Position numbers and translations under genes: made by a program. DNA of 50,084 nt from NCBI GenBank assembly GCA_013813715.1, contig JACCRF010000056.1, positions 1 to 50,084 of the forward strand. The letters run 5' to 3'. Source of the stretch: Gemmatimonadaceae bacterium (lineage in GTDB: Bacteria; Gemmatimonadota; Gemmatimonadetes; Gemmatimonadales; Gemmatimonadaceae). Under the pieces are notes generated by a model. That model was not told the origin of the DNA. It did not search any database and saw nothing but the letters and a program-made list of their open reading frames with translations. This document shows positions 19,402-33,630 of this stretch, piece after piece. Each line of letters begins with the position of its first letter. The first letter of the stretch is position 1.

Positions 19402-19776
19402 ATGGCGACCTCCCTCTCCCCCGTAACACCGGCGCGCGAACCAGCGTCAGCAGCACTTCGCGCGGCGTCTCTGTGCCAGGACATGAAAGCAAATGACGTC
19501 GTTCTCCTCGACCTGAAGGGCGTCACAGACATGACAGACTTCTTCGTCATTGCCAGCGGAACTTCCGACACGCATGTAAGGTCCGTCGGTGAGCACGTGA
19601 TCGCCGAGCTGAAGAAACTCGGAGTAAGGGTTCATCATGTGGAGGGTGTTCAACAAGGGAGATGGGTGCTGCTCGATTTCGTGGACTTTGTCGTCCACAT
19701 ATTTCACCCGACGCTCCGCTCGTTCTACCAACTCGAGCGACTCTGGAGCGACGCCGAAGTAGTGCCAACCGAATAG
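19402..19776 (+). CDS. rsfS: Ribosomal silencing factor RsfS (Iojap/YbeB)
   Basis: 124 residues. RsfS binds L14 and blocks joining of the ribosomal subunits in starvation. The core DVVLLDLKGVTDMTDFFVIASGTSDTHVRSV (split here as motif positions 32-62), the GRWVLLDFVDFVVHIF segment and FYQLERLW are diagnostic. AGGAG stands four bases before the ATG at 19402. It leads the run that continues with the protease-propeller fusion 13 bp downstream. Confidence 0.95.
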   Translation: MATSLSPVTPAREPASAALRAASLCQDMKANDVVLLDLKGVTDMTDFFVIASGTSDTHVRSVGEHVIAELKKLGVRVHHVEGVQQGRWVLLDFVDFVVHIFHPTLRSFYQLERLWSDAEVVPTE

Positions 19777-19789
19777 CGGAGCTGCGAAA

Positions 19790-22700
19790 ATGAAAGCGGT
19801 GCGCGCGTTGACCATTGCGCTGGCGCTTGTGTGCGCCACGGGTCTCGAGGGACAGCAGTACTTCGGCCAGAACCAGGTTCAGTACAAGCACTTCAAGTGG
19901 CGCGTCCTGGAAACCGAGCATTTCCTCGTGCATTACTACCCGGAAGAACGGGAGGCAATCGTGCCTGCCGCCCGGATGGCCGAACGGTCCTATGCGCGCC
20001 TGTCGCGTATTCTGGGCCACCAGTTCCGTGAGAAGAAGCCGATAATTCTCTTCTCCTCGCGCGCCGATTTCGGCCAGAACAACGTCACCGGTGATCTTGG
20101 TGAGGGTGTGGGCGGAGTCACCGAATCGGGCCGCCACCGTCTCATCATGCCGTTCACCGGCGACCTCGGAAGCTTCGAGCAGGTCCTCGCCCACGAAATG
20201 GTGCACGAGTTCCAGTACGACGTTTTCCAGCGCGGTCGCGCGGGCGCGAATCAGCAGAACCTCGAGCGCATCAACCCGCCCCTGTGGTTCATGGAAGGCA
20301 TGGCGGAATACCTGTCTACCGGGCCGACACACCCGCTTACCGCGGGATGGCTGCGGGACGCTGCCGTCACCGGCAACATCCCGTCAATCGAACAGATGAC
20401 GAAGCGGCCGGACAAGTACTTCCCGTATCGCTACGGCGAGTCACTCTGGCAATACGTCGGCGAGCGGTGGGGCGACGCGGCAATTGGCGAAATCCTGCGG
20501 AATTCATCCGCGGTTGGCGTCGAGCGCGCTTTCCAGCGCGAGTTGGGAATGACGCTCGAGGATCTGAGCAGTGCGTGGCGCGAAGCGGTGCAGTCACAGT
20601 ACCTGCCCGCTGCCGCCAACTACCAGCGTCCCCGCTCGTTCGCGGAGCCGCTTCTCACCAGGAAACGCTCGGGAGGCGAGATCTTTCTTGCTCCGGTTTT
20701 GTCGAGCGACGGCAATTACATCGCTTTTCTCTCGAACGGAAACCAGAAGCGCGGCGAGCTGTTCATCGACCTCTGGCTCGGCAACGCGCGAACGGGGGAA
20801 CGGATCAAGCGACTCGTGAAGAGCACGCTCGATCCCAATTTCGAGGAGCTGCGGCTTCTCTACTCGCAGAGCGCGTTCTCCAACGACGGCAAGACGCTGG
20901 CCTTCACCGCGCAGCGTGAAGGAAAGGATGTGCTTTACCTTCTGGACCTCGCGAGCCGCGACGTGAAGAAACGGCTCGACCTGCCGCTCGACGCTGTGAC
21001 CGCTCCGTCGTTCTCGCCCGACGACCGCCGCATCGTCTTCAGCGGGACAAAGGGAGGCGTAACCGACCTCTACATCGTCGACGCCGACGGCAGGAATCTC
21101 AGGCAGCTCACCGAGGATCTGTACGGCGACCTCCAGCCGAGCTGGTCGCCCGACGGGCGGCGAATCGCCTTCGCGACCGATCGCGGACCGCAGACCGACC
21201 TGGCCCGCCTCAAGATCGGCAAATGGCAGATCGCGCTCATCGACCCCGAGACCCGCGCAATCGAGCTCGTTCCGAATCAATCGGGACACAACCTCAATCC
21301 GTCGTGGTCGCCGGACGGATCGTCGGTGGCGTTCATCTCTGACAGGACGGGCGTTGCGAACGTGTTCCTCTTCGATCTCAGCGACCGGCAGCACTACCAG
21401 CTCACGAACGTCCTCGGCGGCGTTACGGCGATTACTGAATACAGCCCGGCGCTGACGTGGGCGCGCGGCGCTGATCGGATGGCGTTCACTTACTATGAGA
21501 ACGGCGATTACACCGTGTGGGCGTTGAACAATCCGCGGTCACTCAAGACCGTCGCGTATCAGCCGCGGCCGGCCGCCTCGACGGGGCTCGTGGTCAATGT
21601 CCCGCTGCTTCTTCCCAGGGCGGTCGTTGCGCGCACGCCTGCCGACTCGGCGCGAATTGCAGCCGACGCAATCAACAACGCATCAACCTACAGGGCACCG
21701 AGCGGGTCGCGGCCGTCCGCCGAGCTGTCGACCAACGAGGCAACGGTGAACGAGGGCGCCGGGACGACGGTGGCCGTGCTGAACGCGAACCCTGATTTCG
21801 CACTGCCCGACACCACGCGGTTCCGCGATTACGCCTACAACGTCGGATTCAAGCCGGACTATATCGCTCAACCTGAAGTCGGATATGGAACCGGCAACCA
21901 GTATGGTCTGAGCGGATTCAACGGCGGAACGACAATCGTCCTCAGTGACCTGATCGGAAATCACCAGATCGCGCTTTCCGCGTCCGTTTACGGTCAGCTT
22001 CGCGACGCAAGTCTGTTCGCCGCCTACTCGAACCTCAGCCGGCGCTGGCAGTACACTGCGGGCGGGTATCAGCAACCCGTGTTTCTTCCGCAGGAGGGCG
22101 GCACCTTTCAGCGGCTTGAAGATCGTGACCGCTACAGATCGCTTTACGTGAGGTACGTGCTCCGCAACATGTTCCTGACGGGGCAGTATCCGCTGAACCG
22201 CTTTACGCGGATCGAAGGCGGCCTCCAGTTCAACAACATTGGCCGCTCGGTTATCTCGCTGACCCAGGACTGCTTCTTCAACGGATGCACCGGGCTCGAG
22301 ATCGACGACGTGTCATCGGCACCGTCGTTCAATTTCCTGTCACCGTCGGTGGCGCTCGTGTCGGACAATTCTCTTTTCGGCATCACCGGGCCGGTGCTGG
22401 GCCGCCGTTACCGGTTCCAGATCACGCCGTCGGTGGGCAACCTGAGATGGGTCGAGTATCTCGCGGACTACCGGCGCTACGATGCTATCGTCTTCAACAC
22501 GCTCACGGTCGCCACGAGGATTCTCGGCAGCGCGTCCGTCGGGCGCGACGAGTCGGAGTTCCCGAAGTACATCGGGCGGCCGGAGTACGTCCGCGGGTAC
22601 GACGGCGCGAATCTCAGCGGTTACGAGTGCACGGCGTTCCTGGGCGGCGGCGGATCCAACTGCAACACGGTGCAGCTCGTCGGAAGCCGCGTCGCGGTGG

Positions 22701-23008
22701 CAAACCTGGAGCTCCGGTTCCCGCTCATCAGGCGGTTCGATCTGGGATCGCTCCCGGTTGGGCTGCCTCCGGTCGAGGGATTGCTCTTCTACGACGCGGG
22801 GATGGCGTGGAACGCTGGCCAGACGGTATCGCTGACCAAGCCTGAGAATTACGATTTCACGCTCCAGCGTTATCCGTTCCGCAGCTACGGACTCGGACTT
22901 CGCGTGAATCTGTTCAACCTCGCGATTCTCCGATGGGACTACGCGAAGCCTCTCGATCAGCCCGGACGCAAAGCGAACTGGACATTCTCACTGGGACCGA
23001 GTTTCTAG
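19790..23008 (+). CDS. Fusion of secreted zinc metalloprotease, TolB-like beta-propeller and Omp85-like outer-membrane barrel
   Basis: 1072 residues. A signal peptide (1-20) precedes a gluzincin-type peptidase domain (about 30-280) with zinc motif H135-E-M-V-H139 and a second motif EGMAEY (E169, E173). At about 285-590 there are repeated PD40/TolB-like blades (SFSPDDRRIVFSG, SWSPDGRRIAFAT, SWSPDGSSVAFIS). Residues about 660-1072 look like a surface-antigen/Omp85-type barrel: NRFTRIEGGLQFNNIG, EYVRGYDG, NLELRFPLIRRF, and a C-terminal Phe. I infer it sits in the outer membrane with the protease and propeller on one face. The substrate is unknown. SPOR genes follow immediately. Confidence 0.85.
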   Translation: MKAVRALTIALALVCATGLEGQQYFGQNQVQYKHFKWRVLETEHFLVHYYPEEREAIVPAARMAERSYARLSRILGHQFREKKPIILFSSRADFGQNNVTGDLGEGVGGVTESGRHRLIMPFTGDLGSFEQVLAHEMVHEFQYDVFQRGRAGANQQNLERINPPLWFMEGMAEYLSTGPTHPLTAGWLRDAAVTGNIPSIEQMTKRPDKYFPYRYGESLWQYVGERWGDAAIGEILRNSSAVGVERAFQRELGMTLEDLSSAWREAVQSQYLPAAANYQRPRSFAEPLLTRKRSGGEIFLAPVLSSDGNYIAFLSNGNQKRGELFIDLWLGNARTGERIKRLVKSTLDPNFEELRLLYSQSAFSNDGKTLAFTAQREGKDVLYLLDLASRDVKKRLDLPLDAVTAPSFSPDDRRIVFSGTKGGVTDLYIVDADGRNLRQLTEDLYGDLQPSWSPDGRRIAFATDRGPQTDLARLKIGKWQIALIDPETRAIELVPNQSGHNLNPSWSPDGSSVAFISDRTGVANVFLFDLSDRQHYQLTNVLGGVTAITEYSPALTWARGADRMAFTYYENGDYTVWALNNPRSLKTVAYQPRPAASTGLVVNVPLLLPRAVVARTPADSARIAADAINNASTYRAPSGSRPSAELSTNEATVNEGAGTTVAVLNANPDFALPDTTRFRDYAYNVGFKPDYIAQPEVGYGTGNQYGLSGFNGGTTIVLSDLIGNHQIALSASVYGQLRDASLFAAYSNLSRRWQYTAGGYQQPVFLPQEGGTFQRLEDRDRYRSLYVRYVLRNMFLTGQYPLNRFTRIEGGLQFNNIGRSVISLTQDCFFNGCTGLEIDDVSSAPSFNFLSPSVALVSDNSLFGITGPVLGRRYRFQITPSVGNLRWVEYLADYRRYDAIVFNTLTVATRILGSASVGRDESEFPKYIGRPEYVRGYDGANLSGYECTAFLGGGGSNCNTVQLVGSRVAVANLELRFPLIRRFDLGSLPVGLPPVEGLLFYDAGMAWNAGQTVSLTKPENYDFTLQRYPFRSYGLGLRVNLFNLAILRWDYAKPLDQPGRKANWTFSLGPSF

Positions 23009-23012
23009 ACCT

Positions 23013-24500
23013 TTGCGCCGCCTGCTAGCGCTGGCGCTTGCCGCAGTCGCGTGTAGTAGCGACCGGCAGGCGCCATCGACTGCGTCCGCGTCTTCCGCAC
23101 CACGTGGTCCCGATCAGATCGTCCTCCGCATTGCCCGAGCAGGGGGGACTGCGCGCGCCTACGTGTATCCGCGTCTGGATTCCGTCGTCTGGGCTGCGGC
23201 CGGTGCACCTCCGGTGTCACGGATGCTCGGATTCGATCCGGATTTCGGGCTTCTGGCCCTCGTGGATGACAAGGATCAGCCGCGCCGAATCGACCTGCGG
23301 CTCACCGAAGTGCGGCTGGCGTCGCGCGCGGTGCTCACGTCGATCGCATCGGCCGACGGTAACGAGATCTACGGGGTGACCGTCGAAGGAGACGTCAAGC
23401 GACTCACCCCCGCCGGCGATTGGAGCTTCGACCCGCCCTTCCCTGCTCGATGGGTTTTCCCGCAGCCCAACGGGTTCTTGGTCATTGCTGGAATGCGCCG
23501 TTCTCAAATGCAATTGTGGCGTATCCGGCCGACTGACGACGAGATTCTCGACAGCGCGGCTCTCCCCCCCGTCACACGCGGACTACGCGCGCAGCTCGGC
23601 GACCGCTTGTATTTTGTGGTTGACAGCGGGCTCGTCGGCGTAAGAACGGGCGACCTGTCGCCGCTGAAGAGCGTACGGTTCGACGAGCCCGTCGTGGCGA
23701 TGGTTCCGACCCCGAGCGGCGATCGGCTTTACGTTGCTCTGCGCGGTTCAACCCGTGTTTCGGTCGTTGACCGTTATTCCGAGGTGATCGCCGGTGCAGT
23801 CGCGCTTCCTGGTCCAGTATCCGAGCTGCGCATGGACCCGCTCGGGCAGGCGATTCTTGCGCGACCCGCCCGCGTCACGGATTCGGCATGGGTCATCAGG
23901 GTGGGCGGTGACCGGGTGGCTGGGACAATCGAGACGTCCTGGCGTAACGATCTGCCGGCGTTTGCTCCCGGCCCCACGATCGCGACAGCCCGTGGCAATG
24001 ACGTCGTCTTCCTCGACACCCGAACTCTCCAGGATGTTCGCACGGTATCTGGCGGCGCGAAGGATTTCTGGTATTTCTTCTCCTGGAATGGATTTCGCCC
24101 TCGCTCCGCTGGGCTGGACCAGCCGGTTACCTTCGAGTCTCGTGACAGCGTCATGCCGCCCGATTCGGCGCTGATCGTCGCCGACAGCGTCCGGCTGCCT
24201 GCTCCTCCAATGCGGGACACGTCGCCGACGATGATCCAGCCGCCCGCGTCCTATCCTCCTTCGCCTCCACGGCCGGCAGGTTTCCTGGTGTCATTCGCGG
24301 CAGTGCTCACTCAGCAGAAGGCGCACGAGTTGACGGCGGGGATAGCCGTCAACGGCGTTCGCCCCAGAGTCGTCCCGACGCAGTCCGGATCGACGACCAT
24401 CTATCGCGTCGTGCTCGGCCCCTATGGCACCCGCGAGGAAGCAGAGCGAATCGGGCGTGATTCACGGCGCGCGTACTGGGTGTACGAGGCACCTCGATGA
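23013..24500 (+). CDS. Lipoprotein with C-terminal SPOR domain
   Basis: 495 residues, starting at TTG 23013, four bases after the previous stop. A short signal with lipobox AAVAC (Cys about 14) is followed by a beta-rich region (30-370) that may be a propeller, since it has repeating VVAMVPTPSGDRLYVALRG-like strands. A Pro-rich linker (400-420) leads to a SPOR domain (about 422-495) with FLVSFAAVL, YRVVLGPYGTREEAERI. SPOR domains bind denuded peptidoglycan at the division site. The stop overlaps the next start by ATGA. Confidence 0.82.
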   Translation: MRRLLALALAAVACSSDRQAPSTASASSAPRGPDQIVLRIARAGGTARAYVYPRLDSVVWAAAGAPPVSRMLGFDPDFGLLALVDDKDQPRRIDLRLTEVRLASRAVLTSIASADGNEIYGVTVEGDVKRLTPAGDWSFDPPFPARWVFPQPNGFLVIAGMRRSQMQLWRIRPTDDEILDSAALPPVTRGLRAQLGDRLYFVVDSGLVGVRTGDLSPLKSVRFDEPVVAMVPTPSGDRLYVALRGSTRVSVVDRYSEVIAGAVALPGPVSELRMDPLGQAILARPARVTDSAWVIRVGGDRVAGTIETSWRNDLPAFAPGPTIATARGNDVVFLDTRTLQDVRTVSGGAKDFWYFFSWNGFRPRSAGLDQPVTFESRDSVMPPDSALIVADSVRLPAPPMRDTSPTMIQPPASYPPSPPRPAGFLVSFAAVLTQQKAHELTAGIAVNGVRPRVVPTQSGSTTIYRVVLGPYGTREEAERIGRDSRRAYWVYEAPR

Positions 24501-25792
24501 CCTCTCCGCCGATCCGGGCGCCGGGAGGCGTATATGAAGGCGCTGGACGCCAGGTCGCCGTCGCCGTGCGCGGCTGCTCGGCGATCGTGGTTGCATCCGA
24601 CGATCCGCGCAGCGCGGCGCATGTCGCGCTTGGAATCGGGCTCGCGGAGAGCGCCCACCGCATCGTGATGATCGCCGACCTGGCCGGAGAAATCGGACCG
24701 CTGCAGACGCTGATCACCGATGACGATTCGCACGGCGTATTCGACAGCTTCGAGTTCGGCACTTCGTTCGGGAAGCTGGCGCGCGAGGTGGTCGGCGCAA
24801 GCAATCTCTTCATCATGCCGAGCGGTACTGAATCGGCAGCCACTGAGCAGATAATCGGAAGTCCGCGGTGGAAACACATCGCAGCCGAGTTCGCCGAGTC
24901 GGACGAGATGCTGATACTGGTCGCGAGCGCGGTGGCGCCGGGCATCGCCCGCCTGGTTGGGAACGTGGATGGAGTCGTGCTCGTCGGGCCGCAGCGGCTC
25001 GCGCTCTCGCCCGATTCCCGTATCCTCGCGAGAGTGCCGCACCCCGTTGTCGTGCCGCCGCCGAGGCTCAGTAGGGCACCCCAGTGGAAATCGCAAGACT
25101 TTTCGCGCATCGGCCTCGCTGCAATCGGATTGCTGGCGGCTGGCATTGCTGGCGGCGCCTTGTTCGGCGGACGGGACGAAGAGTCCACCACGCGTGAGAA
25201 TGAACGGCCGCGAGCTGTTGTCGCCGATTCGGCCGCCGCCGATTCAGCGGCGACTGTGCGGGTAACGCAGGTTTTGCCGGTCAACCCGCATGATTCTGCC
25301 GGAGCGACTGCGTATTCGGTTGAGATTCTCAACGCGAATACAGCGGAGGGTGCTAACTTTGAGCTCGAGCGGCATCGAGCGGCGATGCCGGCGGCGACGA
25401 TCTCGCAGGTACCTATCGGGGATACCGAAGTTACCTGGTACAAGGTCTACGCGGGTGCGTATGACGACAGCCTGCGGGCGGAGGCACTGCTCCGGTTGCT
25501 CCGCCGGCGCCGAATCGTTCCGGATTCCGAGGGGCAGGTGGTGCGAGCCCCGCTGGCATTGCTGGTAGATAGCGTTCCATCGCAGGGAGGCGCTGCCGCG
25601 AAGGCGCGTGAGATGGTGCAGGGTTATGTCGCTCGCGGGCTGCCGGTGTATGCGCTTCTTCAGCGCGACGGAGGCGCGCGGCTCTACGCAGGCGCTTTCA
25701 ATAGTCCTGAGCAGGCGTCACTCGCTGCTACGGCACTTCGGGTTGCTGGCGTGACGCCGGTACTCGCATATAGAACAGGGAGAATTCCGTAG
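24497..25792 (+). CDS. Membrane-anchored protein with ATPase-like N-terminus and SPOR repeats
   Basis: 431 residues. The cytoplasmic N-terminal part (about 20-180) resembles the CpsD/MinD-like Rossmann ATPase fold (VIMIADLAGEIGPLQTL, MLILVASAVAPGIARLVGNVDGVVLV) but has no visible Walker A, so ATP use is doubtful. One membrane segment lies at about 205-225. Two SPOR-like repeats follow (about 270-345 with WYKVYAGAYDDSLRAEALL, 350-431 with ARLYAGAFNSPEQASLAA). Their periplasmic placement is inferred. It overlaps both neighbours, so it is translated with the SPOR lipoprotein and smc. Confidence 0.72.
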   Translation: MTSPPIRAPGGVYEGAGRQVAVAVRGCSAIVVASDDPRSAAHVALGIGLAESAHRIVMIADLAGEIGPLQTLITDDDSHGVFDSFEFGTSFGKLAREVVGASNLFIMPSGTESAATEQIIGSPRWKHIAAEFAESDEMLILVASAVAPGIARLVGNVDGVVLVGPQRLALSPDSRILARVPHPVVVPPPRLSRAPQWKSQDFSRIGLAAIGLLAAGIAGGALFGGRDEESTTRENERPRAVVADSAAADSAATVRVTQVLPVNPHDSAGATAYSVEILNANTAEGANFELERHRAAMPAATISQVPIGDTEVTWYKVYAGAYDDSLRAEALLRLLRRRRIVPDSEGQVVRAPLALLVDSVPSQGGAAAKAREMVQGYVARGLPVYALLQRDGGARLYAGAFNSPEQASLAATALRVAGVTPVLAYRTGRIP

Positions 25793-28700
25793 TGCGCCTC
25801 ACGAAGCTCGAGCTCCATGGATTCAAATCGTTCGCCGACGAGACTGAGCTCGTTTTCGAGCCGGGCGTCACGGCGATCGTGGGGCCGAACGGCTGCGGCA
25901 AGTCGAACGTCTCGGACGCCGTGCGCTGGGTGCTCGGCGAGCAGCGGGCGCGCGCACTACGCGGCGCGAAGATGGAGGAGGTGATCTTCCAGGGCTCGTC
26001 AGCACGACGCCCGGTGAACATCGCGGAGGTGTCGCTCCATTTCGAGAACGACGACGGCGCACTGGGTGTACCGTTTCGCGAAGTCGTGATCACCCGGAGG
26101 CTCAGTCGTTCGGGCGAAAGCGACTATCTCCTTAATCGCGCGCCCTGCCGGCTGCGGGACATCCACGACATGGTGCGTGGCACCGGCCTCGGCGCGGATT
26201 CTGGCGTCGTTATCGAGAGCAGGATGATCGATGCACTGCTCTCCGACCGTCCTGACGAGCGGCGCGAGCTGTTCGAGGAAGCCGCCGGAGTGGGGCTCTA
26301 TCGTGACCGCAAGCGCAGCACTGAGCGGCGACTCGAAGAAACAGCGGTGGATCTCGGCCGTCTCGATGATCTCATATCGGAAGTGCAGACGCAGGTGCGG
26401 TCGCTTGCACGCCAGCGGCGCCGCGCGGAGAAACACGTCGAGTTGAACAGGCGCCGGTTCGTCGTGGAGATCGCCCTTGCCTCCCGGGAGATGGACGCAT
26501 GGAGAGGTGAGCTCGAGCGTCTCGAGCAGCGCGTCCGTCGGTTGCGCGACGAGGTGCCGACGGCCGAAGAGAGCGTCGCGGCCGCCGAAGCGGCGCGCGA
26601 TACGGCTCACGGCGCGCGTGCGGCGGCTGAGGGCCGGCGCGGCGAGCTCACGCGTCTCGTCTCAGAACAGCGCGAGAGCACACAACAGCTTCGTTCCGCT
26701 ATCGCCGTGGCCGAAGAGCGGCAGCGCAATGCACTGGCGCGTCGCGAGCGCGCGGAGCAGGAGCGGCGGGAAGGCGACACGACAGTCGAGCGCGTTGCGG
26801 AGGATCTCGAGCGCGCGAGGAGTCAGCGCGCACAACTCGAATCCCAGCTCTCGCTCGCGAGCAGCGCCCTCGTCGGGCATGTCGCGGAAGAAGACGCCGT
26901 GCGGCGGGCGCTCGCTGAAGCGCGCGCGAAGGTCGAGGCAGCCGAGAGGGTCGCGCGCGAAATGCGCGAAGCCGCGCATCGTGACGAGCTCGACCGTCAG
27001 GCCGCCGGCCGCGAGCTGCACGACCTGGAGATCAGAAGGGCAGCGCTCGTCGATGAGCAGTCGCAGCTTGCGGATTCCGAAGCGGCCGTGCGCCGCGAGC
27101 TCGAACAGACGGAGGAGAATCTTGCTCTCGCGCGCGAACGCAACACGACTCTCGACGGCGCGCTGGCCGCCGCCCTCGCCGCAGTGCGTGCCGCCCGCGA
27201 CGCCGACTCTGCGGCGCGCTCTTCCCGGCTCCGTGCCGAGGAGGCGCAGACCGCGCTCGCCGGCAGACTCAACGCGCTGGAGGCACTCGAGCGCGATCGC
27301 GTGGGGCTGGCTCCGGCGGCGGCACGGCTCCTCAAGGATCGCCGGCGCTTCGGCGAAGGCGCCATCATCGGTCCATTGAGCGACTACATCAGTACCGACG
27401 CCGAATCGGCATCGCTCGTCGAGCGGTTCCTCGGTGCGACTCTGCACGCCGTACTCGTCCGCGATCGCGACGCGGCGGAAGCCATCCGTGCCTGGCACGC
27501 CGCGACCAATCCAGGCGCGCTGCTGCTGCTTCCCGCTGATTCGGCACCGCCTTCTGATGGCGATGGGCCCTCGGAGGAGGGAGTGCTTTCCCGCCTCGTG
27601 AGCAGTGAGTCGCCGGCTGAGGCATGGGTGCGGACGCTACTGGGAAGTGTCACCTCGCTCGAGGGCGGTACTGGTTTCGTGGATGCACGTGGAGCGGTCT
27701 GGCTTCCTGCCAGCATTGCCGGTGCAGGCCCGCTCCGACGTCGCGCCGAAATATCGACGTCTAGACGCGACCTTCTCGACGCGCGGGCAAATCTCGAGCG
27801 CGCGGCGGGCGACGCCGACGCCAAACGCGGCGAGCTGGAAGACGCGGAGCGTGCATCCGCTGCCGCCAATGAGGCAGTCCACGTATCGTCGCGCGATGTT
27901 GCCGAGAAAGAAGATCTCTTCACTGCGGCGACCCGCCGCCATCACCGGGCTGTCAGAGAGGCGACTGATGCATCGGCGCTGCTCGAGCGCCTCGCCGAAC
28001 GCGAATCCCTTCTTCTTGAGACTATCGCCGGGATTGACCAGGCAATCTCGCAAAAGGAAGAGGGCGCCACGTCTCTCGATGCGGCAGTCGCCGAAGCGCG
28101 CCGCGGGCTCTTCGACACTGAAGCTGGGCAGGACGAGGCACGCGGACGGCGTACTGCCAGCGAAATCGCCAGCGCGCAGGCGCAGGCGCGTCTCCAGGTC
28201 GCGAGCGACAGAGAGCGCCATCTGCACGAGGAGCACATATCGGCGAGTTCGCGGCTCGCGTCGCTGCAATCGGAGCTGGTCACGCTTTTGAGCGCAGACA
28301 GTGAGCTCGCAGAGCAGCTCGTCGGATGGCAGCTCGACATCGACGCGAGGCAGGCGACGCTCGAGGATGCTGAGGCACGGCTGGCCAGCTCCGAGGTCGC
28401 GGTCAAGGCGACCGACGCTGAACTGGATGGCGCTGAGCATGCGCTGACCGACTTCCGGCACAAAGCGACTGGGCTAGTTGACGAGCTGCACACTTCAGAG
28501 CTGAGGCTCACCGAGCTATCCGGCCGCCGGGCCGCTATCCGCGAGCGGCTCGAGACCGAATGGAGGAGGCCGCTCGAGGATCTCCTGGACAGCGCGGAGA
28601 GCGTCGAAGACGACGATGACTCGCTGCGGTTGGAGGCGGCGCAACTGAGGGATCAGGTCGATGCGCTCGGCCCCGTGAATCCGCTGGCGATCGAAGAGCA

Positions 28701-29331
28701 TGAGGAGGAGCAGAAGCGCCTCGAGCTGCTCACGTCGCAGCGCGCTGATCTCGCTTCGGCGAAGCTTTCGCTTCAGCAGGCGATCCGCGAGATCGATGCG
28801 ACGGCCCGCGAGCTCTTCCTCGGTACATTCGTCCAGGTTCGCGAGAACTTCAGAAAAATCTTCATGACGCTGTTCGGTGGCGGTGAGTGCGATCTGCGAC
28901 TCGAGAATCACGACGCTCCGCTCGAAGGTGACATCGAGATTCATGCGGCACCGCGCGGAAAGCGCACGCAGCGAATACATCTTCTCTCCAGCGGCGAGAG
29001 AGCCCTGGTGGCATTGTCGCTCCTCTTCGGAATCTTCCTCACCAAGCCAAGTCCGTTCTGCCTTCTGGATGAGGTCGATGCTCCGCTCGACGACGCCAAC
29101 ATCGGCCGATTCGTGCTGATGCTGAACGAGTTCAAGAGCAACACACAGTTCATTGTCATCACGCACAACCCGCGCACGACAACAGAAGCGGCGGACGCTG
29201 TATACGGAGTCACGATGCAGGAGCCGGGGGTTTCGTCGCTTGTGAGCGTCCGCATGCGGGGAGGGGCGGTCGAAGACGCCATCGCGGGAACGATTCCAGC
29301 GCCAGAGCCGGAAGCGGCGCTGAGCGCCTAG
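25792..29331 (+). CDS. smc: Chromosome segregation protein SMC
   Basis: 1179 residues. The ATPase head halves flank long coiled coils and a hinge (about 515-650). Walker A is GPNGCGKSN (31-39). The signature motif is at 1065-1069, reading LSSGE instead of the usual LSGGE, and Walker B is LLDEVDAPL (D1093, E1094). It compacts and segregates the chromosome with ScpA/ScpB, which are absent from this window. GTG 25792 shares one base with the previous stop. Coupling to SPOR genes is unusual and suggests a segregation and division transcription unit. Confidence 0.97.
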   Translation: MRLTKLELHGFKSFADETELVFEPGVTAIVGPNGCGKSNVSDAVRWVLGEQRARALRGAKMEEVIFQGSSARRPVNIAEVSLHFENDDGALGVPFREVVITRRLSRSGESDYLLNRAPCRLRDIHDMVRGTGLGADSGVVIESRMIDALLSDRPDERRELFEEAAGVGLYRDRKRSTERRLEETAVDLGRLDDLISEVQTQVRSLARQRRRAEKHVELNRRRFVVEIALASREMDAWRGELERLEQRVRRLRDEVPTAEESVAAAEAARDTAHGARAAAEGRRGELTRLVSEQRESTQQLRSAIAVAEERQRNALARRERAEQERREGDTTVERVAEDLERARSQRAQLESQLSLASSALVGHVAEEDAVRRALAEARAKVEAAERVAREMREAAHRDELDRQAAGRELHDLEIRRAALVDEQSQLADSEAAVRRELEQTEENLALARERNTTLDGALAAALAAVRAARDADSAARSSRLRAEEAQTALAGRLNALEALERDRVGLAPAAARLLKDRRRFGEGAIIGPLSDYISTDAESASLVERFLGATLHAVLVRDRDAAEAIRAWHAATNPGALLLLPADSAPPSDGDGPSEEGVLSRLVSSESPAEAWVRTLLGSVTSLEGGTGFVDARGAVWLPASIAGAGPLRRRAEISTSRRDLLDARANLERAAGDADAKRGELEDAERASAAANEAVHVSSRDVAEKEDLFTAATRRHHRAVREATDASALLERLAERESLLLETIAGIDQAISQKEEGATSLDAAVAEARRGLFDTEAGQDEARGRRTASEIASAQAQARLQVASDRERHLHEEHISASSRLASLQSELVTLLSADSELAEQLVGWQLDIDARQATLEDAEARLASSEVAVKATDAELDGAEHALTDFRHKATGLVDELHTSELRLTELSGRRAAIRERLETEWRRPLEDLLDSAESVEDDDDSLRLEAAQLRDQVDALGPVNPLAIEEHEEEQKRLELLTSQRADLASAKLSLQQAIREIDATARELFLGTFVQVRENFRKIFMTLFGGGECDLRLENHDAPLEGDIEIHAAPRGKRTQRIHLLSSGERALVALSLLFGIFLTKPSPFCLLDEVDAPLDDANIGRFVLMLNEFKSNTQFIVITHNPRTTTEAADAVYGVTMQEPGVSSLVSVRMRGGAVEDAIAGTIPAPEPEAALSA

Positions 29332-30432: not shown

Positions 30433-31098
30433 ATGAAACTCATCGCAACGTTCGTCGCGCTCAGCATGGGCGCGAGCGCAAATGCACAAACGCCCGAAGC
30501 AACGATGGAGCGCGCGGCCCGCACTTACTCTGACATGCGCAGCATGCGTGCCGAGTTCCAGCAGACAATCACCAATCCGCTTACGGGGACGCGGTCGGTG
30601 TCGCGCGGTGTGCTGCTCCGGCGCGAGCCGAATCTTCTCTCGGTCAATTTCAGCGATCCGGCGGGCGACAGGGTCGTCGCCGACGGGACTAACGTCTGGG
30701 TTTATCTGCCCAGTTCGGCGCCCGGACAGGTGATCAGGATGCCCGCATCGGGAGGGAGCTCGCTCTCGACGGTGGATCCCGGCGGGCTTTTCATGTCTTC
30801 ACCCGGCAGCCGCTACACGATCACGAGCGCCGGAACGGCGATCATCAGCGGCCGGAAAACCAACGCCCTGGTGCTCGTTCCGAAAAAGCCCAACCCCGCG
30901 TTCACGCGGGCCAAAGTGTGGATCGATGCGGCCGACAATTCGATTCGGCAATTCGAGATCGCCGATGCCAACGGCCTTACGCGCCTCGTGTTAATCACGA
31001 GTCTCCGCAGCAATGTCACGATCGCGCGTTCGGAATTCCGGTTCACGCCGCCGGCAAAAGTCAGGATCCTCAATTCCGCGTCGCTCTCAGGCATGTAG
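30433..31098 (+). CDS. lolA: LolA-like outer-membrane lipoprotein carrier
   Basis: 221 residues with a signal peptide (1-18, ANAQ). The LolA half-barrel is seen in SMRAEFQQTITNPLTG, GVLLRREPNLLSVNFSDP, VADGTNVWVYLPSSAPGQV, and the ending FEIADANGLTRLVLI. LolA carries lipoproteins across the periplasm to LolB. No LolB or LolCDE gene is present here. The start ATG is one base after the DAHP synthase stop. A role in supplying the outer membrane fits the upstream lipoproteins and barrel protein. Confidence 0.88.
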   Translation: MKLIATFVALSMGASANAQTPEATMERAARTYSDMRSMRAEFQQTITNPLTGTRSVSRGVLLRREPNLLSVNFSDPAGDRVVADGTNVWVYLPSSAPGQVIRMPASGGSSLSTVDPGGLFMSSPGSRYTITSAGTAIISGRKTNALVLVPKKPNPAFTRAKVWIDAADNSIRQFEIADANGLTRLVLITSLRSNVTIARSEFRFTPPAKVRILNSASLSGM

Positions 31099-31129: not shown

Positions 31130-31993
31130 TTATCGCAACAGCAGCGCGTTCTGAATCTCAGCGAGCCGGCCGGGATCCGTCCCCCGCCGGCTTGCCGTCT
31201 CGACGGCCGCGAGCGAGAGTCGCTTGTATACCGCTCTCGCCTCCGGATTCCCCTTCAGTGCGGCGAGATGACGCATAACCGTGTCGACGTCGCCACGGAC
31301 TATAGGACCTGTGAGCGCGTCGCCCGGCGGCGTTTCTGCGATGTTGGAGACCGCGGCTTCCATCAGGCTGTGCACCGCCTGCTGAGCGCTCCGCTCGGTG
31401 ATGCCGAGGCCTGCAAGCAGTTTGCTTGCGACCTCGGCGAGGATGACCGGAAAGTTCGACGCGATGACGGCGGCGGCGTGATACGCGCTCTTGCGGCCGG
31501 CGGGAATCTCGAGCGTCCGCGCGCCGACATGTCCGGCGAGCCGTCTCGACATCGCTCTCGCGTGCTCGTCGCCGTCGATGCCGATCCATGCCCTTCTGAG
31601 AAATCCGGCGGCACGCTCCGGATTCGCAAAAGGAACGAGAGGGTGAAACGTACCGCCGCTCATCCCGAGCTCCGAAAGCCGCGAGATCAGCCGTGGCTCG
31701 GCGCTGCCCGACGTATGGACGACCGCGGTGCCGGATGCGACGCGCAGTCTTCGGGCCGCGCCGCGCGGCTCGATCAACTCGGCAATAGCGTCGTCAATCT
31801 GATCGTCGCGAACGGCGAGGATTACCGCGTTGGCGTCGGCTAGTGCCGGGGGCAGCGCGCCGCTGGAGGTCGTGAATGCCGAGGGACGCCGGCCGTGGAG
31901 GCCGAGGAGCTCGACTCCCCCGGCCGCACGAAAGGCGCGGAATAACCCGCGCCCCACCTGCCCAGCGCCAACAATGAAAACCCGCTCGCTCAC
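31130..31993 (-). CDS. DUF2520/Rossmann-like NADP-binding protein
   Basis: 287 residues. The N-terminus has a dinucleotide-binding site VFIVGAGQVGRGL, then VILAVRDDQIDDA and HTSGSAEP. The C-terminal helical DUF2520 domain (about 160-287) has GRKSAYHAAAVIASNFPV, as in ketopantoate-reductase-like or ProC-like proteins. The substrate is unknown. It ends the leftward rpmE run and overlaps the S41 protease stop by ATGA. It is convergent with lolA, with 31 bp between. Confidence 0.85.
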   Translation of the reverse strand: MSERVFIVGAGQVGRGLFRAFRAAGGVELLGLHGRRPSAFTTSSGALPPALADANAVILAVRDDQIDDAIAELIEPRGAARRLRVASGTAVVHTSGSAEPRLISRLSELGMSGGTFHPLVPFANPERAAGFLRRAWIGIDGDEHARAMSRRLAGHVGARTLEIPAGRKSAYHAAAVIASNFPVILAEVASKLLAGLGITERSAQQAVHSLMEAAVSNIAETPPGDALTGPIVRGDVDTVMRHLAALKGNPEARAVYKRLSLAAVETASRRGTDPGRLAEIQNALLLR

Positions 31994-33630
31994 TCGTTGC
32001 TCAGTGCACGCTGCTCCCGCTGGCGGCTGAGTGCGCGATCGAGGAGCGATTTCTGCGTCGAGGCGCCGGTCATGAGCTCGAGAGCCGTCTTGATCGCCCG
32101 GTCGTTCGCGACTCTGCGCCGGAATTCCGCTTCGGGCCCAAACACGTAGCGCGCGATGTCATACGAAAGGAAGGGCGCCACAACGTTCGAAGATTCGTCA
32201 TAGATGCCGCGATCCATCACGATTCCGCGGGCCACCATCCGCTTCCACACCTCGTCGAGCATCGGCTGCGTGACGGTGAACTGCGGAGAAGCGATCTCCC
32301 GCTTCGTCTTGAGCGCCAGAGCATAGTCTGCCAATGCATCGCGAAAAAGCCCGACCTTGCGGTCCAGCGCGCCCTGAAATGTGCGCACGCCCTCGGACCA
32401 TGCACTGTCGCTCTCGATCACGTCGGGTGTGATGCCGCCACCGTCGTAGACGATCCGCCCGGACGATGTCGTGTATTGCTTTCGCTGGCCCGCTCTCGGA
32501 TCGGCGGATGAGTCATCGTCGTCTCTGTCGACCTCCTTGCTGATGGATCGCCCTGACGGCGTGAACCACCGCGAGGTGGTGATCTTGAGACCACCGACCT
32601 CGCCCAGCGGGATGATTGTCTGCGCGCTTCCCTTGCCGTACGTCGATTCGCCGACAATCACCGCACGGTCGTGGTCCTGGAGAGCGCCCGCCACGATTTC
32701 GGCGGCGCTCGCGCTCTTGTCGTCGACGAGAACCGTGATGGGCACCGACGGCCAAAGCTGTTTCGTGCTGTCAGTGTAATCGCGGTTCGCCCCCTCAGTT
32801 CTGCCGCGAAGACTGACGATTCGCTGTCCGGGCCCAAGGAAAAGGTCAGCTACGCGCAGGCCCTGCTCCAGGAGTCCTCCGGGATTCGCGCGAAGATCGA
32901 GCATGAGCGATCTTGCTCCTCGTGCGCGCAACGCGTTGACGCTTCTCGTGACTTCGCGCTCGGTCGAGTCGCTGAACGCGTCGAGGTCGAGGTATCCGAC
33001 GCCATTGGGAAGCATCGCGATGCGGCGCACCGAGCTATGGTGGAGCGGCCTCCGCACAAGCGTGAGCGGAATGACGGTCGCCATCCCCGGCCGCTCGACG
33101 CGAAGCGCCAGCGAAGTCCCGGGCCGCCCGCGGAAAGAGCGCTGCGCTTCCTCATGAGTCCAGCCGTGAGTCGAGCGGCCGTCCACCTCGATGATCCGGT
33201 CGCCGGGCTGAATGCCTGCATGCTCGGCGGGGCTGCCTGGCGTTGGCGAGATAACAATCATCCATCCGTCGCGCACATCCACCTGGACGCCGATACCAGC
33301 GTAGTTGCCGCTCGTCGTCTCAGTGAGGCGTCCGAGCTTGTCCGGGGCGAGCAGGGACGTGTACGGATCCTCCAACTCGTACAGCATTCCCTCGACTGCC
33401 ATCCGATACATCGAGGAGGCGGCGAGGGAGTCAACGTAGTGACGGTAGATGTGCACGAATACTTCGTCGAACAGCCGTGCCGCCTCGGCCTTCGTCCTCA
33501 CCGGGCCGGATCGCGCCCCGTGTTCGAGCAGCCATCCGCCGGTGACGAGCGAGATGACCAGCACCAGCGCAACAGTAATAGTGCGAGGGCGGGCGCCGGG
33601 ATTCATGCCGGAATTCGCATCAGGGGTCAT
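31990..33630 (-). CDS. S41 family C-terminal processing peptidase
   Basis: 546 residues. A single N-terminal anchor (about 17-34), a PDZ domain (about 105-185) with YAGIGVQVDVRDGW and GIQPGDRIIEVDG, and the S41 protease core. The catalytic dyad is S318 (KSASAAE) and K343 (STYGKGSAQ), 25 residues apart as in Prc. The C-terminal region (430-546) is helical. It probably trims periplasmic proteins. It could start at ATG 33609. It shares an ATGA with tmk upstream. Confidence 0.95.
   Translation of the reverse strand: MTPDANSGMNPGARPRTITVALVLVISLVTGGWLLEHGARSGPVRTKAEAARLFDEVFVHIYRHYVDSLAASSMYRMAVEGMLYELEDPYTSLLAPDKLGRLTETTSGNYAGIGVQVDVRDGWMIVISPTPGSPAEHAGIQPGDRIIEVDGRSTHGWTHEEAQRSFRGRPGTSLALRVERPGMATVIPLTLVRRPLHHSSVRRIAMLPNGVGYLDLDAFSDSTEREVTRSVNALRARGARSLMLDLRANPGGLLEQGLRVADLFLGPGQRIVSLRGRTEGANRDYTDSTKQLWPSVPITVLVDDKSASAAEIVAGALQDHDRAVIVGESTYGKGSAQTIIPLGEVGGLKITTSRWFTPSGRSISKEVDRDDDDSSADPRAGQRKQYTTSSGRIVYDGGGITPDVIESDSAWSEGVRTFQGALDRKVGLFRDALADYALALKTKREIASPQFTVTQPMLDEVWKRMVARGIVMDRGIYDESSNVVAPFLSYDIARYVFGPEAEFRRRVANDRAIKTALELMTGASTQKSLLDRALSRQREQRALSNE

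Follow-up and report, generated by a model that had tools for sequence, protein, structure and literature searches.

Within a 50,084-nucleotide stretch of a Gemmatimonadaceae contig (the window), a single gene raises the question of what one protein would do with a zinc protease, a TolB-like propeller and an Omp85-type barrel in the same chain. A reading made from the sequence alone had claimed this combination in a single 1072-residue frame, and the frame is present exactly as described. We consider it somewhat probable that the barrel holds the propeller and a putatively active gluzincin protease in the periplasm, where the enzyme would process or clear envelope proteins. The gene and the features of its product are as follows.

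19790-23008, + strand: target open reading frame, ATG start, 1072 residues, single frame
19790-19855, + strand: signal peptide, residues 1-22, a hydrophobic run followed by QYFGQN, no lipobox, putative cleavage site
19859-20641, + strand: gluzincin-type zinc metalloprotease domain, residues 24-284 (profile, AlphaFold2 model, Foldseek/VIA)
20192-20206, + strand: HExxH motif HEMVH, residues 135-139; H135, E136 and H139 identical in 78/78 aligned proteins
20294-20311, + strand: EGMAEY, residues 169-174, with E169 as predicted third ligand of the zinc
20642-21565, + strand: TolB-like beta-propeller, residues 285-592 (profile to TolB, structure alignment)
21566-21769, + strand: variable, poorly ordered linker, residues 593-660 (pLDDT <50 over most of 596-657)
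21836-23005, + strand: Omp85-type outer-membrane beta-barrel, residues 683-1072, ending in Phe (profiles, VIA)
22589-22600, + strand: loop-6 motif VRGY, residues 934-937; R935 and G936 in 78/78, Y937 in 72/78
22628-22663, + strand: loop-6 cysteine pair C947/C958; exactly two Cys in 69/78, none in 9, one in 0

From the N terminus, the chain thus leads from the signal peptide through the HExxH...E zinc protease (24-284), the propeller (285-592) and the variable linker to the barrel (683-1072), and the same signal-peptide layout is seen in relatives. This architecture lies far beyond chance, because dozens of relatives have the same frame over its full length and H135, E136, H139, E169, R935 and G936 are identical in all 78 aligned proteins. 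Pfam recognizes PD40 in the target (2.5e-37) and gives only weak peptidase matches (BSP 0.005, M61 0.02), and the NCBIfam matches to TolB (3.6e-38) and to the Omp85 family (4.5e-7) both fall beneath curated cut-offs. Across 36 relatives, at E <= 0.01, Pfam finds PD40 in every one, BSP peptidase in 29 and Omp85 in 13; Peptidase_MA_2 matches 6 of them, and so does Peptidase_M9. For sharper identity, we used profiles of the protease, propeller and barrel built from relatives. An AlphaFold2 (AF2) model of the whole chain, built with 78 sequences, has a pLDDT of 86.2 and a pTM of 0.84, the latter suggesting that the three domains are packed in a defined arrangement. Profiles, AF2 and Foldseek/VIA agree on the outer-membrane-anchored protease with three domains that the sequence-only reading had proposed, and there is good support for both the architecture and the anchoring in the outer membrane.

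Within the protein, conservation is highest in the protease (mean pairwise identity 52.5%, compared with 44.9% for the propeller and 37.4% for the barrel). Its profile matches an M9 collagenase (7wss, E 2.1e-4), with HExxH and EG.AEY aligned to the collagenase motifs and the EGMAEY of the target opposite an EGVAEY. Folded alone in AF2 (pLDDT 88, pTM 0.87), the domain resembles M9 collagenases (Foldseek/VIA Z 15-17, maximum 17.3), the M30 protease lugdulysin (17.0) and M1 aminopeptidases (13-14). HExxH with a downstream Glu (78/78) and a thermolysin-like catalytic fold by VIA are the features of gluzincins (clan MA). The two motifs are located where they had been read from the sequence, and the His and Glu residues, which the earlier reading had taken for one site, align with the collagenase metal site in sequence and are predicted to share its fold. 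Within EGMAEY, E169, G170 and Y174 occur in 78/78 and E173 in 77/78 proteins. M9 collagenases share the gluzincin fold and the HExxH...EG.AEY arrangement with the target, but they are secreted and have no barrel, and the Pfam Peptidase_M9 match of the target is weak, at 12 bits below the cut-off of 26. For Peptidase_M48, Pfam gave no match in the target, and the target is absent from the M48 search of its own genome. HExxH, the Glu downstream of it and an aromatic last residue are kept in 18 remote paralogues that are only 22-30% identical (L182, in the wrong frame, and L189, with no full relative, were left out) and likewise in 22 further relatives. The invariance of the zinc ligands and general base, extending to such low identity, would point to purifying selection on catalysis.

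Propeller repeats are present, as the repeated WSPDG blades of the first reading implied (PD40 in 5 stretches), but WSPDG occurs exactly in two blades only, the others having SSDG, SNDG or FSPDD. The propeller profile matches TolB (3.8e-48), and VIA-align places residues 308-587 on TolB 3iax with Z 27.3, rmsd 2.6 and 248 aligned residues; Foldseek concurs. The span that follows (595-672) varies from 28 to 126 residues in length among relatives.

At the C terminus, the barrel matches PF01103 above its curated cut-off (1.3e-11), its profile matches BamA (1.5e-6), and the last residue is the Phe noted from the sequence; this position is F, Y or W in 77/78 aligned proteins. Residues 689-1072 align with Deinococcus BamA 8xnb (VIA-align Z 23.3, rmsd 4.3, 306 aligned; Foldseek concurs), and predicted secondary structure gives about 15-16 barrel strands. 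The earlier reading would have failed had the last 400 residues been predicted not to form a closed barrel; they superpose on BamA barrels with Z about 23. The target thus has both the C-terminal barrel that defines the Omp85 superfamily (PMC4104836) and the (V/I)RG(F/Y) loop-6 motif, whose RG was found by pattern in 8/14 divergent relatives. The two-or-none distribution of C947 and C958 points to a likely loop-6 disulfide, in a count whose independence is limited by kinship among the sequences. Pfam matches no POTRA family in the target or among 36 members; it does so in three further Omp85 proteins that the genome encodes. POTRA domains are usual but not universal in Omp85 proteins, and the subfamily survey of PMC4104836 accepts subfamilies without them.

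Several known identities were tried against the target in its own genome. The target resembles TolB in the fold of its propeller (Z 27) and in its sequence repeats (profile 3.8e-48), but here the propeller is fused to a protease and a barrel, the score on the TolB equivalog TIGR02800 is 131.6 bits against a cut-off of 343.15, and a separate tolB lies in a complete tolQ-R-A-B-pal-cpoB operon on another contig (C176). On the BamA model TIGR03303 the target scores 23.9 against 297 bits and has no POTRA, whereas the true BamA (C45) passes with 370 bits. Two more POTRA-Omp85 proteins (L166 on G000:C125 and L167 on G000:C140) fall under the BamA cut-off. With its own tol-pal operon and true BamA in the genome, the target is neither TolB nor BamA, and the suggestion of a TolB-type sensor or clamp finds no support. 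There is no patatin match in the target that would make it a PlpD (type Vd) protein. A replacement for BepA is not supported either, as the genome holds at least four strong M48 proteases.

We next describe the distribution of the family. All 298 Gemmatimonadota genomes contain some match, and 295/298 do so at E <= 2e-65 (the exceptions carry the working labels G053, G075 and G098), making the target a core gene of the phylum. The genome of the window has one copy, its remaining matches being propeller repeats only; some other genomes carry two or more paralogues. A scan of named genomes gave 80 loci, and intact end-to-end relatives with three domains occur in Latescibacterota, Acidobacteriota, Aminicenantes and Rhodothermota (Rhodothermales). 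The fusion is thus not a local one. Phylum-wide searches around an Acidobacteria, a Latescibacterota and a Rhodothermales genome gave matches in 38/119 (E <= 1e-60), 16/16 and 122/198 (E <= 1e-30), respectively, counts that include paralogues and whose architecture was checked in samples. The tree (FastTree, midpoint root) separates clade I (51 rows, including the target) from clade II (27 rows). In one single-contig Gemmatimonadota genome, the best match (L189, G075:C1:3530000-3536000) covers the barrel part only, in a 318-residue frame, and the fusion seems to have disappeared from this genome or to have undergone heavy change. A contig with a Clostridiales label carries a full-length relative (L129) that groups with Aminicenantes in the tree and probably comes from a mislabelled bin.

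The closest published description is that of WD40-Omp85, defined by Heinz & Lithgow in 2014, who compared its propeller to TolB and proposed a BamA+BamB-like role (PMC4104836). As described in that paper, these proteins carry the propeller N-terminal to a POTRA-less Omp85 barrel, an order that the target shares; the description names a WD40 domain only and does not mention a zinc protease ahead of it. The protease joined ahead of propeller and barrel would then be new, or the two sets may be one group of proteins whose protease went unnoticed. In an open-access search, with most subscription papers outside its reach, only PMC4104836 and short mentions came up, and we found neither a description of the triple fusion nor an experiment on any member of the family. 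PF00149 is the family of calcineurin-like phosphoesterases. It is the family cited for the 'Metallo' Omp85 subfamily (PMC4104836), whose domain would thus differ from the protease of the target. A 2024 paper still calls these Omp85 subfamilies not well characterised (PMC11116518). If the preferred reading is correct, the uncharacterised WD40-Omp85 proteins would be enzymes and not only scaffolds, and the point mutation E136A would separate the two.

PlpD offers the nearest precedent in layout, with an N-terminal enzyme, shown to be periplasmic, on a C-terminal Omp85 barrel; it differs in having a patatin lipase and one POTRA, with neither propeller nor metalloprotease (PMC11116518). In PlpD the barrel can serve as a plain anchor, and a model of delivery to the surface was overturned (PMC11116518). 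The precedent for the chemistry is BepA of E. coli, an HExxH zinc protease that works in the periplasm at an Omp85 barrel, namely at the BAM complex and outer-membrane assembly site (PMC8423444; PMC13067283). BepA, however, is a separate soluble protein of family M48, a functional analogy and, by the tests here, not a relative.

We propose that the barrel anchors the target in the outer membrane with propeller and protease on the periplasmic side, that the propeller would be a docking platform, and that the tethered enzyme may process or remove envelope proteins near the outer membrane, as BepA does at BAM. An Omp85 barrel has its two termini in the periplasm, where the PlpD enzyme stays as well, so the simplest reading is a periplasm-facing tethered protease. 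Against this reading stand the nearest matches of the N-domain, which are M9 and M1/M30 and not M48, so that the substrate class of BepA is not transferable; the M48 proteases already in the genome; the two or more paralogues of several genomes, which would suit secreted or scavenging enzymes as well; and the lack of conserved neighbours outside clade I. If the reading holds, an outer-membrane-fixed zinc protease kept across a phylum would be a basic envelope component in bacteria whose envelope biology is hardly studied.

The alternative that survives best, although we think it unlikely, is a protease that its own barrel brings to the cell surface (type V-like autotransport) for nutrition or interaction. 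The closest folds are those of secreted collagenases, the linker ahead of the barrel is long and variable, and some lineages carry several paralogues in one genome. However, a folded propeller would hardly fit through a 16-stranded Omp85 barrel whose loop 6 sits inside, the prediction packs the barrel and the domains above it into a single body, and a gene present once in the genome and retained almost throughout the phylum resembles a housekeeping gene; the PlpD model for such delivery was itself overturned (PMC11116518).

Slightly less likely still is a single-chain assembly device in which the barrel would insert or help fold outer-membrane proteins, the propeller would take the role of BamB, and the protease would edit failed clients. 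The conserved RG motif in loop 6, the role proposed for WD40-Omp85 in PMC4104836 and the BepA precedent (PMC8423444) are in its favor; the absence of POTRA, the true BamA and two further POTRA-Omp85 proteins in the genome, and the plain anchor of PlpD (PMC11116518) are not. Were it true, one self-editing chain, core in Gemmatimonadota and widespread in related phyla, would unite roles that E. coli splits among BamA, BamB and BepA.

The neighbouring genes bear on a further alternative.

19402-19776, + strand: RsfS, ribosomal silencing factor, upstream (PF02410 3.8e-31), a position it holds in almost every clade I locus that has flank
23013-24500, + strand: SPOR1, predicted lipoprotein with a SPOR domain at its end (PF05036 1.8e-6), after a 4-base gap
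24497-25792, + strand: SPOR2, membrane protein with SPOR domain(s) (PF05036 8.9e-8), overlapping SPOR1 and less constant than it
25792-29331, + strand: SMC chromosome segregation ATPase (TIGR02168 4.5e-264)
30433-31098, + strand: LolA-type lipoprotein carrier, farther along this gene row (PF03548 8.9e-17)

Where the flank is long enough, Gemmatimonadota loci of clade I show a nearly constant order, L9-RsfS-target-SPOR1-(SPOR2)-SMC, and DAHP synthase and LolA are often part of the row. SPOR1 usually begins close behind the target and has a lipobox-like Cys near its start in most clade I relatives. In clade II (Longimicrobia, Acidobacteriota, Aminicenantes, Rhodothermota), no common neighbours were found beyond small groups; the SPOR link is thus real but local to one clade. 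The sequence-only reading had drawn on these neighbours for a role in envelope maintenance or constriction, of which the constriction part is weakly supported: the RsfS-target-SPOR-SMC row is conserved in clade I but not shared by the sister clade. A constriction factor acting with the SPOR proteins at the septum is improbable to our minds. The SPOR lipoprotein four bases downstream, conserved across clade I, speaks for it; the sister clade has no such neighbours, Tol-Pal is separately present, and the operon also includes rsfS, smc and DAHP synthase, so that it may be a mere conserved housekeeping row and constriction is only a lead. Finally, we regard it as very improbable that the protein is structural, with a catalytically dead protease domain: the four catalytic-site residues never vary among the 78 aligned proteins and persist in remote paralogues.

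Other observations concern the surrounding genes and the most distant relatives. The middle of SPOR1 is propeller-like (a weak YVTN repeat match) ahead of its C-terminal SPOR domain, and the gene is kept directly after the target in clade I. SPOR2 has its SPOR domain at the C terminus, and it also contains a hydrophobic stretch and, in its N-terminal region, a faint tyrosine-kinase/P-loop match (TIGR03018, E 0.04). An S41 (Ctp-like) protease with a PDZ domain (31990-33630, - strand) is convergent with the lolA gene row. In one group of distant paralogues (L179-L183 except L182), the spacing from HExxH to EG is longer and an insert precedes the loop-6 RG motif.
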